Assembly (NCBI GenBank): GCA_035048495.1
Contig: CM068546.1
Span: 12,220,435 to 12,284,434, forward strand
Origin: Euptelea pleiosperma
Taxonomy: Eukaryota; Streptophyta; Magnoliopsida; Ranunculales; Eupteleaceae
Reading direction: 5' to 3'
DNA: 64,000 nt
The notes beneath the pieces were generated by a model that was not told the origin of the DNA, searched no databases, and saw only the letters and a list, made by a program, of their open reading frames with translations. The translations under genes and the position numbers were made by a program. Numbering within the stretch: the first letter of the stretch is position 1; each line of letters opens with the position of its first letter. Positions 35,813-64,000 of this stretch are shown here, piece after piece.

Positions 35813-35899
35813 ATGGGCAGCGATGGCAAGATCTTCACTTTGGCTGAAGTATCTGAGCACGATAACTCCAAGGATTGTTGGCTCATTATCAACAGCAAG
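35813..35899 (+). CDS. CB5: cytochrome b5, exon 1 (intact copy)
   Basis: Cytochrome b5 is a small haem protein of the ER face that passes electrons from its reductase or P450 reductase to fatty-acid desaturases, hydroxylases and P450s. This exon encodes 29 residues, starting MGSDGKIFTLAEVSEH and ending DCWLIINSK, the standard N terminus of plant cytochrome b5. It ends at a phase-0 donor (AAG|GTATAATC), the usual plant intron 1 position. The next exon needed, starting with VYDVTKF, is found only at 63667, so the intron would be 27,767 bp. The start ATG is the first in the leader. A degenerate second copy of this exon lies at 59587-59670. Nothing resembling exon 2 occurs between 37 and 44 kb. 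So this exon either serves the downstream exons or is orphaned. Confidence 0.85.
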
Positions 35900-36228
35900 G
35901 TATAATCTCTCTAATCTAATGTCTTTTTTTTTTTTTTTTTGGTTTTTTTAATATCAGATCCCATGTTTTGAATCAGATCTTTGTTCCTCGCATCAAATCT
36001 CATCGATCTGTTACTGCTTGTTCTTGTATGTTCGTTGACTATCTATTTCTAGATCATGTTCTTGGAGATTTGTGTTAAAACAGTGTTGGTGTTGATTGGA
36101 TCTGTTATTCGTATCAGTTGAACATTTGTATCTCCTCAATTTTTCACCAATTGCTGCAATTTAGGGTTTTTTTTTTGATAAGCCAATTTAGTGTTCTAAT
36201 TCTATCAAATTTGTACTTCCGGTCTGCA

Positions 36229-36539
36229 CAAGGTTTTAAATGGTCCGTTATAAGTTATGGTGACTGTTATAGCGGCCGTTATAACGACCACGCTGAGTAA
36301 AAAAGCTCAGAATATTAATATTTTATTATTTTTCAAAAAAACCTTGATAATAGTTAAAAAAAAACTTTTTTTCCCCCAATAAGGGTTGTGATTTCTGTTA
36401 TGATGCTAAGCCCCCCCCCCGCCCCTTTTTTTTTCTGGATTTGAGCGTTATTTTTGAAATAACGTTATGGGGTTTCGGGTGTTACTGTTATAATGGCTGT
36501 TATTTTCGTTATAAAGTAACGGCCGATTCATAAACCATG
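36229..36539. mobile_element. hAT-type MITE in cytochrome b5 intron 1
   Basis: Starts CAAGGTTTTAAATGG and ends ATTCATAAACCATG. The flanks GGTCTGCA/CTTCTGCA match at 6 of 8. The body has AGCGGCCGTTATAACG and TAACGGCC units and a C-run at 36412-36421. It is absent from the matching place in block B. Confidence 0.65.
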
Positions 36540-37140
36540 CTTCTGCATCCTTTTCTGGTACATATGTGGGAGTTGTGCTAGCTCAATACCCAAAAACACA
36601 TACACAGGCATTCACTATTGTGAATTTGTGATTGCTAAGAGGGTGTTTTGAAGCTTGGATATATTATCCAACTCTAGGATAGTGTGTTTAAAAGAAGCTT
36701 TTTGTTTTTTGTTTATCTTGCTGTGCAAACAATTGATGAGGAAAGGTAGGTCCTGGAAAATTTGGTTATTAGAGGGCCTTTCCTTAGGGAAGGTGCATTT
36801 GTGATTAAACCGGGCTTCCCATGGTCAAGAGAGGGTGAAAATATTCTGTGCGTCCAAATTCCTAAATTTCGAGGAAATGTTTTTCTTGTCATGAACTCTT
36901 GTTTGCTTTTTCTCTCTTCATCTTTATCTTTTGTATGAGTTTTTTGGGATTTGATTATGTTAGGAAATGATTGGAGTAGACTCTGCAATCAGGCTTATAT
37001 GAGAACAAGTTTATCCGTCTCTGATGATGTGTTTATGTTTCTTTTCTTTACACGATTTTGTCTGTGTTTTCTACTTTTGCTCACAATATGGGAAGAAGCA
37101 TATTTGGCTTAGGATTGAGATACGAATCTGTTGTATTCTA

Positions 37141-37380
37141 AAGATATCACAGCATGGATTTCCTACTAGTTTACTGAAATCATAATTAAATGCAAGAAAT
37201 CATAATTTTATTTTGCCTCTTTATTTGAGAGGTGAGAACTTCCTCTTGACAATTATTAGATATGGGAAATCATTCTTTCATCTTTCGGTTTGTCACTTTT
37301 TTGACCATGTTTCATTGGTTTTGCGGTTATAGGATTACTACACAATTTGCTTGGTATGTGCCGTTGACCTGACATGGAAA
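37141..37380. other. end of block A, nothing recognised
   Basis: No similarity to the intron continuing in block B, so the duplication breakpoint lies near 37135. Confidence 0.4.
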
Positions 37381-38697
37381 TCATGCCTTGGATCCGAGTA
37401 CCTGTAAAAAAAATAGAGTAGTATGATAGGAAGAGAAAAGGATGGAGTTAAAGAGAACAATGAAGGCAATGGAAAAGGAGAAAATGTCTAAGCTCTTTTT
37501 TAATCCATTATGTGTGTGGAATAGTAAGACGGATTTGTCTCTTCTGATTCTTTCTCCTTCTTGATTGAGCCTTTGAAGTGAAGCATAAGACTTTTGATTC
37601 AAGACTCGAATTTCCTTGAGATGATTCTCTTGGCTCCCAAATGGTTTATTCTTGGGAGGAGCCTTGAGATATCTCTCATCAGAAGGCATTTCAGCTCATC
37701 CTTCCTCACTCAAATGGTTTTGATTTTCACATGGTCTCATCAATTATCAACCATTTGAGTAGCAAAATTGAAAGACTTGGCTTTTCTCTTTTTGTTCCTT
37801 CTTGTTCTCTTCTTGGTCCTAGCCTTAAATGAAGAGGGAACATCGTAGTTTTGCTTTTGGGCATTGAAATCAGACTTGCCATGCTTGTTTGAAGCTACGT
37901 CCCATCTTAGAATTGTTAAGCTGAGTAATCTCATTGATGAGTGCTCTTTGCTTTTCATTCAAGGCTTGAACCTTTTTGAGAAAGCCTATTTGGTTCATTT
38001 TAAGCTCATGCTGTGATTGAGCTTTTTGATCTCTTAAATACAGGCCTCATTTAACCCTTCCTATCATAGTAGTAACACAACAAAAGATTTGGCTTTAGGC
38101 TTAGGAGGGTCAATCTCTTGTGTAGCAACTTGAGCTTTTACAAAATTAGTTCTAGACGAAGATGAGGAGTTCATACTATGAACATATCCAAGATCTCTCC
38201 CATCTCCTCTTTTTCCAACAGAAAGGATCTTCTCAAGCTTTTCTGTGCTCTAAGAAAATTAAGGTAAGTCTCTCTTCAATTGAGTAATTTCTAATTCCAG
38301 AGACTTCTCTCTATCCAAGTCTGGAACTTGCATTGTAGAAACTTGTTCTTGTCTTGAAGAGCATTCTTCTTTTCTGTGAGTTGACTGAGCAAGGTCTTGG
38401 TCTCATCGGCTTCTTGCTTCAAGGCTGATTTTTCACTCTCAATAGTGAAGAGCTTCTTGTTAGCCTTGGTCAACTTAACACTCTTCTCGTATAAAGCCTT
38501 GTAGGCCGCAAGAAATTCTTCCTCGTTTTTAAATTTCGAGGAACTAGAAGTGTGTTTAAAGGAGTCGTATATTTCTCCATCTAACAAGTGGAGGTCGAGA
38601 GATGTTTCTACCCCCTCTTTGCATTTCTGTAGATCAAGAAAACACAAAATTCACGCTCAGATCGTTAGATCCAAACGGGTGAACCAGCTTTGATACC
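37381..38697 (-). mobile_element. Ty1/copia-like remnant with gag coiled-coil
   Basis: The minus-strand ORF at 38647-38291 encodes an acidic, coiled-coil-like stretch (EEEFLAAYKALYEKSVKLTK, ALKQEADETKTLLSQL). This type lies between UBN2-like gag and the protease in large copia elements. Further broken basic fragments (RTKKRTRRNKKRKAKS; PPKNKPFGSQENH) follow to 37381. A primer site, TTGGTATCAAAGCTGGTTC on the minus strand at about 38680-38698, marks the start of the internal region. Most of pol is missing. Confidence 0.5.
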
Positions 38698-62210: not shown

Positions 62211-62215
62211 TAATC

Positions 62216-63666
62216 TATGTAATCTTATTTAATATCTACTTTCTTGCTGGTTTCTAATATCTTGTATCTTGTCCGTTGTTTCATATGAGAACTTAGTTCC
62301 TTGCATTCGATCCCATCGATTTGTTCAATGAAACATATGTGGCCGATCAACGATTGGTTTATTATGTTCTGTTTGTTGGCTCTGTTTCCAGATCATTGTT
62401 CTTGGATTTGTTAAAAATGTGGTACTGATTGGATCTGTAATTCGTATCAGTTGAACATTTGGATCTCCTCAATGGTTCAGTCTTTGTTATTTTTGTAATT
62501 CTGCATCCTTTTTCTGTATGGATCTATTATGCTTAATACCAAAATAAGCATACACAGGCGTTCACTCTTAGAGATCTGTTCCACATGTGTTATCCAACTC
62601 AAGGATAGCGTGTCCAAAAGAAGCTTTTTGTGTTTGTCTTGCTGTGTGAACAAACGACGAGGAAAGGCAGGTCCCAAAAAATTTGTGATAAAACTTTTCA
62701 TGCGTAAAAGACACCTAAAACTTCCAGGAAATGTTTTCCTTGTGATATGAACTCTTGTTTGCATTTCTCTTTCCACCTTGTATCTTGTTGTAAGAGGTTT
62801 TTGGGAGCTGACTACTGATTCCAGTGGATGAGAATAAGTTGGTTAATCTTTGATGATGTGTTTTTCTTTTTCTTTGCATGCATTCCGTGTTCTCTACTTT
62901 TGTTCGCAAGGTGGAAAGAAGCATATTTGGTTTAGGATTCAGAGATGAATCTGGATGCAGGGTTAGGTCTTGCTTGTCTGATCTAACCTGGTATAGGGCC
63001 TTTAAATTACCATTTGACGCAGGATGCTAAGGAGTTGTTTCTCGTTCAACCCACTTTTTGTGCATTTTAAGTGTTTTTTTCTTTCTTTGGATCAACTTCA
63101 ATTCTGATTTTACTGGGCTGGGATGAAGAAAAACCTGTGTCCAAACACAACCCTAATCTGGTTTCATGAATTACAGAAATACTCCAAGACAAAATGGAGA
63201 CCACTAATGCAATTAGGTACTACAAAAAATGGCAGAACTATCCTTAACAAATGAATAGACCCAAAAGTACATTAACATAATATCTCTGAGCATATGTACC
63301 GTGTCTCCTCTACATGGTAAGAATGTGAAGCCTTAGAGGGCTTTACCACATTCCAGTAAATCTATTTCGATTACATATTAGAGGTTAATGAAACGTCATT
63401 GATACAGATAGCCTAATAGGAGCTGAAGGGCTTTACCAATTACTTAGTACTTGACCCTGTGTTTCAAGTGTCAGTCAACCAAGGTGTGGAGGTGGATTGA
63501 TTGTAGTCTAATCTTCCAACCCCAGTATCTACCTTGAAGATGAGAACCTCAAAATGGATGAGGTCTTTGGTGTGCTTTCTCTAGTTATTGATCTAAAGTT
63601 TGAAATTAGTCTTTGTTTGTCCATTTTTCATGTCCTTGAATTCCACATCTTATAATGTTGGAACAG
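62216..63666 (+). other. cytochrome b5 intron 1, 3' part
   Basis: The first 725 bp match block A intron (36000-37135), including TCGTATCAGTTGAACATTTG and GAAGAAGCATATTTGG. The remainder is unique AT-rich intron ending in ...GAACAG at 63666. No other gene seen. Confidence 0.7.
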
Positions 63667-63733
63667 GTATATGATGTGACAAAATTCTTAGAGGACCATC
63701 CTGGGGGTGATGAGGTTCTGTTATCGGCCACAG
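63667..63733 (+). CDS. CB5: cytochrome b5, exon 2
   Basis: 67 bp between AG (63665-63666) and a GT donor at 63734. It encodes VYDVTKFLEDHPGGDEVLLS, then AT plus the first base of a Gly codon. It contains the invariant HPGG motif whose His is the first axial haem ligand. It starts in phase 0, as exon 1 requires, and ends in phase 1. Intact, with plant-typical sequence. Confidence 0.95.
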
Positions 63734-63842
63734 GTATCAATACGAAATGACATCTGTTGAACGAAACATCTAAATTTGAGTCTTTTGTTCGTTTTTTAAA
63801 ACAGAAGCTTATAGATTCAAATGTTGTGCTGTGGTTTGACAG

Positions 63843-64000
63843 GGAAGGATGCAACCGATGATTTTGAGGATGTTGGTCACAGTAGCACTGCTAGGGCAAT
63901 GATGGATGAATACTATGTTGGAGAGATTGATTCTTCAACCATCCCAAGCAAGCAGAAATACACTCCTCCCAAGCAGCCTCACTACAACCAGGACAAAACC
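63843..64000 (+). CDS. CB5: cytochrome b5, exon 3 (runs off the window)
   Basis: Follows a 109-bp intron (63734-63842, GT...AG). It encodes GKDATDDFEDVGHSSTARAM, followed by MDEYYVGEIDSSTIPSKQKY and a Pro/Lys/Gln-rich linker. The His in VGHSS is the second haem ligand. With exons 1 and 2 this gives 104 residues. Plant cytochrome b5 proteins are about 135-140 residues, so the missing part is the C-terminal membrane anchor, beyond 64000. No defect seen. Closest in type to ER-anchored plant cytochrome b5. Confidence 0.95.

Follow-up and report, generated by a model that had tools for sequence, protein, structure and literature searches.

The closest described relative of the arrangement reported here is PEP1 of Arabis alpina, the orthologue of FLC. 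The cited portions of two reports describe in this gene a tandem duplication of about 2 kb that includes exon 1 and parts of the promoter and of intron 1 (PMC3527215, PMC7927791). Exons 1a and 1b are both alive, lie 6.3 kb apart and are both spliced to one exon 2, as documented by complementary DNA (cDNA) and rapid amplification of cDNA ends (RACE), and in the cited part its authors note little homology between the sequences further upstream (PMC3527215). A second precedent is the mammalian UGT1A locus, in which, according to the cited excerpts, tandem first exons, each with its own promoter, have exons 2-5 in common, to which they are spliced, and differ in the substrate domain that they encode; the human locus yields nine functional products from thirteen promoter regions, and in the cat the UGT1A6 first exon is dead and exon 1 of UGT1A1 is intact in the same locus (PMC2724710, PMC3065456). 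Here we describe a cytochrome b5 gene in a 64,000-nucleotide stretch of Euptelea pleiosperma (contig CM068546.1 of assembly GCA_035048495.1, positions 12,220,435 to 12,284,434, forward strand; hereafter the window). Two copies of its 5' end precede a single set of later exons. We consider it probable, at roughly three chances in four, that transcription of the gene starts in the far copy and that splicing joins 35899 to 63667 over a 27,767-bp intron 1 (35900-63666, forward strand, the splice itself being predicted), the near copy being broken.

A segment comprising the promoter region, exon 1 and a part of intron 1 occurs twice in the window, as two diverged tandem copies that agree in order and orientation. 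Copy A (the far copy) occupies 33644-37130 and copy B (the near copy), with its insertions, 44552-62953, both on the forward strand; the duplicated DNA is thus larger than a preceding sequence-only reading of the window had seen (33.6-37.1 kb against 44.6-63.0 kb). Ten blocks, which start in copy A at 33644, 33955, 34071, 34703, 35066, 35496, 35663, 35915, 36541 and 36838, are matched in copy B in copy A order, 10 of 10 on the same strand and collinear (blastn, E ≤ 1e-5, one repeat masked); the same search against the reversed target gave 0 blocks. At E ≤ 1e-3 the one further match of each block anywhere in the window is its partner. An eleventh match (34630-34683 with 60735-60788) was excluded, as it lies within 34404-34687, a repeat with many copies in the window. 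A random control did give matches: copy A hit 14 of 20 random stretches (0 to 12 matches per stretch), and after masking of one repeat 7 of 11 stretches still matched (0 to 6 per stretch). All 16 control matches against 1-33000 fall at 34404-34687, 34836-34981 or 35263-35451, in a repeat that lies outside the ten blocks.

Upstream of exon 1 the block homology extends for about 2.2 kb; at its other end it breaks off at 37130/62953, some 0.7 kb short of exon 2. Nothing behind copy A corresponds to this final 0.7 kb of intron, and 37131-43067 is DNA without assignable origin. A lone match between 31018-31095 and 43068-43143, in the right order and found nowhere else in the window, may extend copy A. 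The two copies differ by 0.16-0.29 in four intron pieces (pooled over 583 sites 0.209, Kimura two-parameter distance (K2P) 0.25), and by 16-30% per piece overall, the leader being the most different (0.30). Copies this different can be neither allelic haplotypes nor a recent duplicate made in assembly. A 248-bp tandem repeat, its two copies 94% alike, lies between the 5' copies (43296-43786). Copy A also carries insertions of its own, upstream of exon 1A, at approximately the three repeat positions given above. They belong to a short repeat family that is interspersed in the window in both orientations (also at 7482-8084, 13624-13891, 32082-32291 and 55242-55461) and is absent from the corresponding places of copy B.

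Exon 1 of copy A (exon 1A, 35813-35899, forward strand) is intact. It comprises 29 codons of cytochrome b5, with the translation MGSDGKIFTLAEVSEHDNSKDCWLIINSK, and ends in a phase-0 donor (AAG followed by GTATAATC), GTATAA standing directly 3' of it; direct reading thus bears out the intact first exon first seen at this place. Upstream, at 35641-35653 on the forward strand, the string TATTAATAAAAGG can be read, a putative TATA element of the far copy. It occurs once in the window, and its ATAAA part is missing from copy B. The CT-rich leader that follows (35663-35812, forward strand) has no upstream ATG and no insertion relative to copy B, and it differs from the leader of copy B by 30% over 132 aligned sites. 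For comparison with the family we used 116 plant relatives, which are the best 120 listed database matches less four whose length fell outside 128-140. Exon 1A has a mean identity of 0.670 to these relatives, 27 of which score lower, so judged by this measure it is within the range of the cytochrome b5 family. In exon 1, 15 positions are conserved in 90% or more of the relatives. Exon 1A departs at two of them; 15 of the 116 relatives likewise depart at two and none at more.

Exon 1 of copy B (exon 1B, 59587-59670, forward strand) is dead. It reads ATT for ATG, has lost one codon and carries TGA at Trp23, which yields the translation IGGDDKVFTLGEACERNSKGC*LIINGK; the donor is kept and is the same as that of exon 1A. 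The sequence-only reading had recognized this second exon 1 with its ATT, TGA and shared donor, to which the deleted codon is added here. The mean identity of exon 1B to the relatives is 0.515, below that of all 116, and it departs at 6 of the 15 conserved positions. The two first exons differ by 0.23; of the 28 sites at each codon position, 3 differ at the first, 6 at the second and 10 at the third.

Copy B is interrupted by four insertions: a LINE-like piece (long interspersed nuclear element), a Copia element with a nested hAT element, a miniature inverted-repeat transposable element (MITE) and a second Copia element. Together these four make up 15,627 bp, 56% of the predicted intron 1. The LINE-like piece (44789-45842, reverse strand, its ends taken from the gap between two copy B blocks) has a zf-RVT reading frame at 44902-45906. 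Copia-1, 11,806 bp long (46907-58712, forward strand), is flanked by the 5-bp target duplication ATATG, and its long terminal repeats (LTRs) are 97.6% alike (K2P 0.024). The hAT element nested in it (50397-56817, reverse strand) has the 8-bp target duplication CATAGACA and BED, DUF659 and hAT dimerisation domains. The MITE (235 bp, 59200-59434, or 59191-59443 with its 9-bp target duplication AAACCATTA; no strand assigned) has terminal inverted repeats that agree at 15 of their 16 bases, and by the rule of 9-bp target duplications we take it to be Mutator-like, perhaps a Mutator-type non-autonomous element. Its position in copy B is the place of TATTAATAAAAGG in copy A; after it copy B reads ATTAAGG, without ATAAA. 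Copia-2, older and degraded (59679-62210, forward strand), starts 8 bases past the end of exon 1B, has the target duplication TAATC and contains extra DNA in its 5' LTR; dating by its LTRs was dropped, as two stretches gave K2P 0.17 and 0.47 and the element is too degraded. The target duplications of Copia-1, hAT, MITE and Copia-2 (5, 8, 9 and 5 bp) are all perfect. The best listed database matches of the Copia protein are about 67% identical to it. The LTRs of Copia-1 have diverged (0.024) roughly one tenth as far as copies A and B (0.25), which suggests, if the two clocks agree, an intron of about 16 kb over much of its past, before the arrival of Copia-1 and the nested hAT. Pfam scans of 20 reading frames found mobile-element domains and recognized no host gene; below the curated cut-offs there was one DUF724 match and one Rab11-FIP3-like match. 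Elsewhere in the window, at 22185-25568 on the minus strand, an aspartyl protease, a reverse transcriptase and an SH3-like domain probably mark pieces of a Gypsy-type element.

The later exons are intact as far as the window shows. Exon 2 (63667-63733, forward strand) has the HPGG motif and is in phase 0 with both exon 1A and exon 1B, and exon 3 (63843-64000, forward strand) runs to the end of the window, with the remainder of the gene, where the C-terminal membrane tail would lie, beyond it; on these exons and their compatibility with either first exon the sequence-only reading holds. At the 54 positions of exons 2-3 that 90% or more of the relatives conserve there are 0 departures, and these exons have no residue unseen among the 116. 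The histidines in HPGG and VGHS, which we take to be the two haem ligands, are both found in their translation. When exon 1A is joined to exons 2-3, the translation matches the haem-binding domain PF00173 with 107.5 bits (cut-off 23.7). Like the transposon proteins, it marks the window as plant DNA, and it matches 1591 proteins. Among the best 120 of them, a Kingdonia protein is 90% identical over all 104 residues, followed by Thalictrum and Bertholletia proteins at 88%; with a top identity of 90% among these 120, the plant's own protein is not in that set. One database cytochrome b5, P0001 of Vanilla planifolia (161 amino acids), has DCWLIINGKVYDVTKFLEDHPGGDE twice in tandem, perhaps by exon duplication or by an error of assembly or annotation.

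A profile of the 116 relatives, run over the six frames of the window, gave six rows with E < 0.001 at four places, which are exons 1A, 1B, 2 and 3; it revealed no further cytochrome b5 exon in the window, the best row outside the four having E = 5.2. This bears on how the copies arose. The whole gene might have been duplicated in tandem, the exons 2-3 of copy A then deleted and copy A spliced to those of copy B. The homology end at 37130/62953, about 0.7 kb before exon 2, suits such a history, and a deletion could hide in 37131-43067; on the other side, neither the six-frame profile nor a blastn search with the intron tail detected remnants of exons 2-3 in the DNA that separates A from B, and no second set of these exons turned up behind copy A. 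We hold a whole-gene duplication to be possible, at somewhat less than even odds; the gene would work at present in the same way, and this history is compatible with use of the far copy. The proposal of a partial tandem duplication in the sequence-only reading is supported as to the tandem 5' copies, but "partial" is unproven, since the end of the homology fits either a breakpoint or a later deletion of exons 2-3. Its companion statement casts the decayed first exon as ancestral and the upstream one as the duplicate that replaced it. Support is lacking for this wording: a tandem duplication leaves the previous upstream flank with the far copy and the previous downstream flank with the near one, and neither of the two is the original.

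Whether exons 2-3 outlasted exon 1B by chance was addressed by neutral simulations, which used simple substitution and indel rates derived from the intron alignment. A joint test covered eight neutral ages (K 0.01-0.2; 6000 and 2000 runs). The best product, at one shared age, of the probability that exon 1B departs at six or more positions and the probability that exons 2-3 are as intact as they are was 4e-6, and at the run numbers used the product was 0 for six of the eight ages. No single neutral age fits a decayed exon 1B together with intact exons 2-3, so selection on exons 2-3 apparently continued once the near exon had decayed. If exons 2-3 outlived exon 1B under selection, the N-terminus was needed from elsewhere; apart from exon 1B the window has a single first exon, exon 1A, which is phase-compatible with exon 2. 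For exon 1A itself, neutral survival with at most two departures, at K 0.125 per lineage, had a probability of 0.055 or 0.047, and by a stricter measure based on unseen residues 0.0075.

Several points weigh against a functional far exon. The neutral test on exon 1A is weak when taken alone, since survival rises to 0.19 without indels and to 0.35-0.39 for a true neutral distance of K 0.05. Exon 1A has Asp17 and Ser28, residues that none of the 116 relatives shows, and copy B has the usual Asn and Gly at these positions; at least two residues unseen in other relatives occur in 8 of the 116, which places exon 1A in range, near the edge. Moreover, the query whose similarity guided the choice of relatives includes exon 1A, a bias towards copy A. 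Finally, a 27.8-kb intron with two sense-strand Copia elements offers possible early polyadenylation or cryptic splicing sites.

The two unseen residues also fit a locus that is dead as a whole and only recently so, with exon 1A a leftover, exons 2-3 not yet decayed and a paralogue active elsewhere. Neutral survival of exons 2-3 is 0.226 at K 0.01 and falls to 0.012 at K 0.03, which leaves room for a very recent death. Even then exons 2-3 would still have been selected for most of the time since the decay of exon 1B began, and exon 1A would have been needed up to a recent time, barring a first exon beyond the window; we regard such a death of the locus as unlikely. Less likely still is that exons 2-3 live with another 5' end, be it an unrecognized first exon, within the intron or before the window begins, a transposon promoter, or the ATG at 63655, which is in frame with exon 2 (63655-63666 encode MLEQ before VYDV). 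The window has no third cytochrome b5 first exon, and a start at 63655 would lose the first 29 residues, among them Leu10, His16, Cys22 and Trp23, invariant in 116 of 116 relatives. The same ATG could mislead a gene finder into a truncated model. That the assembly joined two allelic or unrelated pieces is, for all the repeats in the region, hardly credible given an A-B difference of 16-30% by piece (pooled intron 21%), far beyond that of alleles, ten collinear blocks, four insertions in copy B with perfect target duplications, and 0 runs of N in the window.

Transcription from the far copy can thus be set in a tentative history. A tandem duplication would have produced the two 5' copies, and both first exons could initially have been spliced to the single exon 2. 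The near copy would then have been hit, in whatever order, by loss of the start, a stop, a lost codon, the MITE at the core promoter and a Copia element just past the donor, and the simulations suggest that exons 2-3 remained under selection after the near exon had decayed. A first exon has a donor and no acceptor, so a transcript from the far copy would skip exon 1B. The far copy would now supply the N-terminus, and former intergenic DNA and a dead promoter would have been turned into intron. Copia-1 and then the hAT nested in it enlarged this predicted intron, at a later time if the clock is right. We think it likely that the locus is a completed promoter relay: a tandem 5' copy took over, transposons and point mutation destroyed the near promoter and exon, and intergenic DNA became intron. 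The replacement of promoter and first exon put forward in the sequence-only reading survives in its tandem copies, the death of the near exon, the survival of the far one and the signs of selection on exons 2-3, but not in its opposition of an ancestral copy to a duplicate. If the far exon is used, the start of the cytochrome b5 gene has moved about 24 kb upstream and the gene has gained a giant intron with its protein little changed.

Comparison with the described systems places the locus. In Arabidopsis IBM1, according to the cited part of the report, full-length transcription through intronic heterochromatin depends on IBM2/EDM2/AIPP1, and most such genes kept their full-length transcripts unchanged when intron methylation was lost, with IBM1 and PPD7 as exceptions (PMC11265718). 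As in that description of IBM1, a transcript of the cytochrome b5 gene would cross a transposon-bearing intron; the parallel is a prediction, and a need for IBM2/EDM2/AIPP1 here would be a guess. As reported for the cat UGT1A locus in the excerpts at hand, a dead first exon stands in a locus that keeps an intact one. Unlike UGT1A, the window has one live and one dead first exon and no array of first exons, and the protein is predicted to be unchanged. A limited search of the open-licence PubMed Central literature found no report of a plant gene left with the far first-exon copy alone.

The likeness to PEP1 is closer, since in both a tandem promoter region, exon 1 and part of intron 1 lie ahead of one set of later exons. 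The first exons here are 23.7 kb apart, in contrast to the 6.3 kb given in the cited part of the PEP1 report, and pieces of the two copies differ by 16-30%. Homology reaches about 2.2 kb upstream, unlike the little upstream homology noted there, and splicing to exon 2 is predicted here from the fit of donor, acceptor and phase. Unlike exons 1a and 1b, only one of the two first exons here is coding-competent, the near one having no ATG and a stop codon, and the cytochrome b5 locus looks like a later stage than PEP1, with only the far first exon left. Were this so, duplication of a 5' end would offer a way to giant introns and shifted promoters without any new splice site or change of the protein. 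We expect such loci to be easy to misannotate, as a gene truncated at exon 2 or as a pseudogene at exon 1B, and a dead first exon inside intron 1 would offer a signature for a systematic search. PEP1 would then represent the stage with two live first exons and the cytochrome b5 locus the resolved one, and promoter turnover by 5' duplication could be traced through both.

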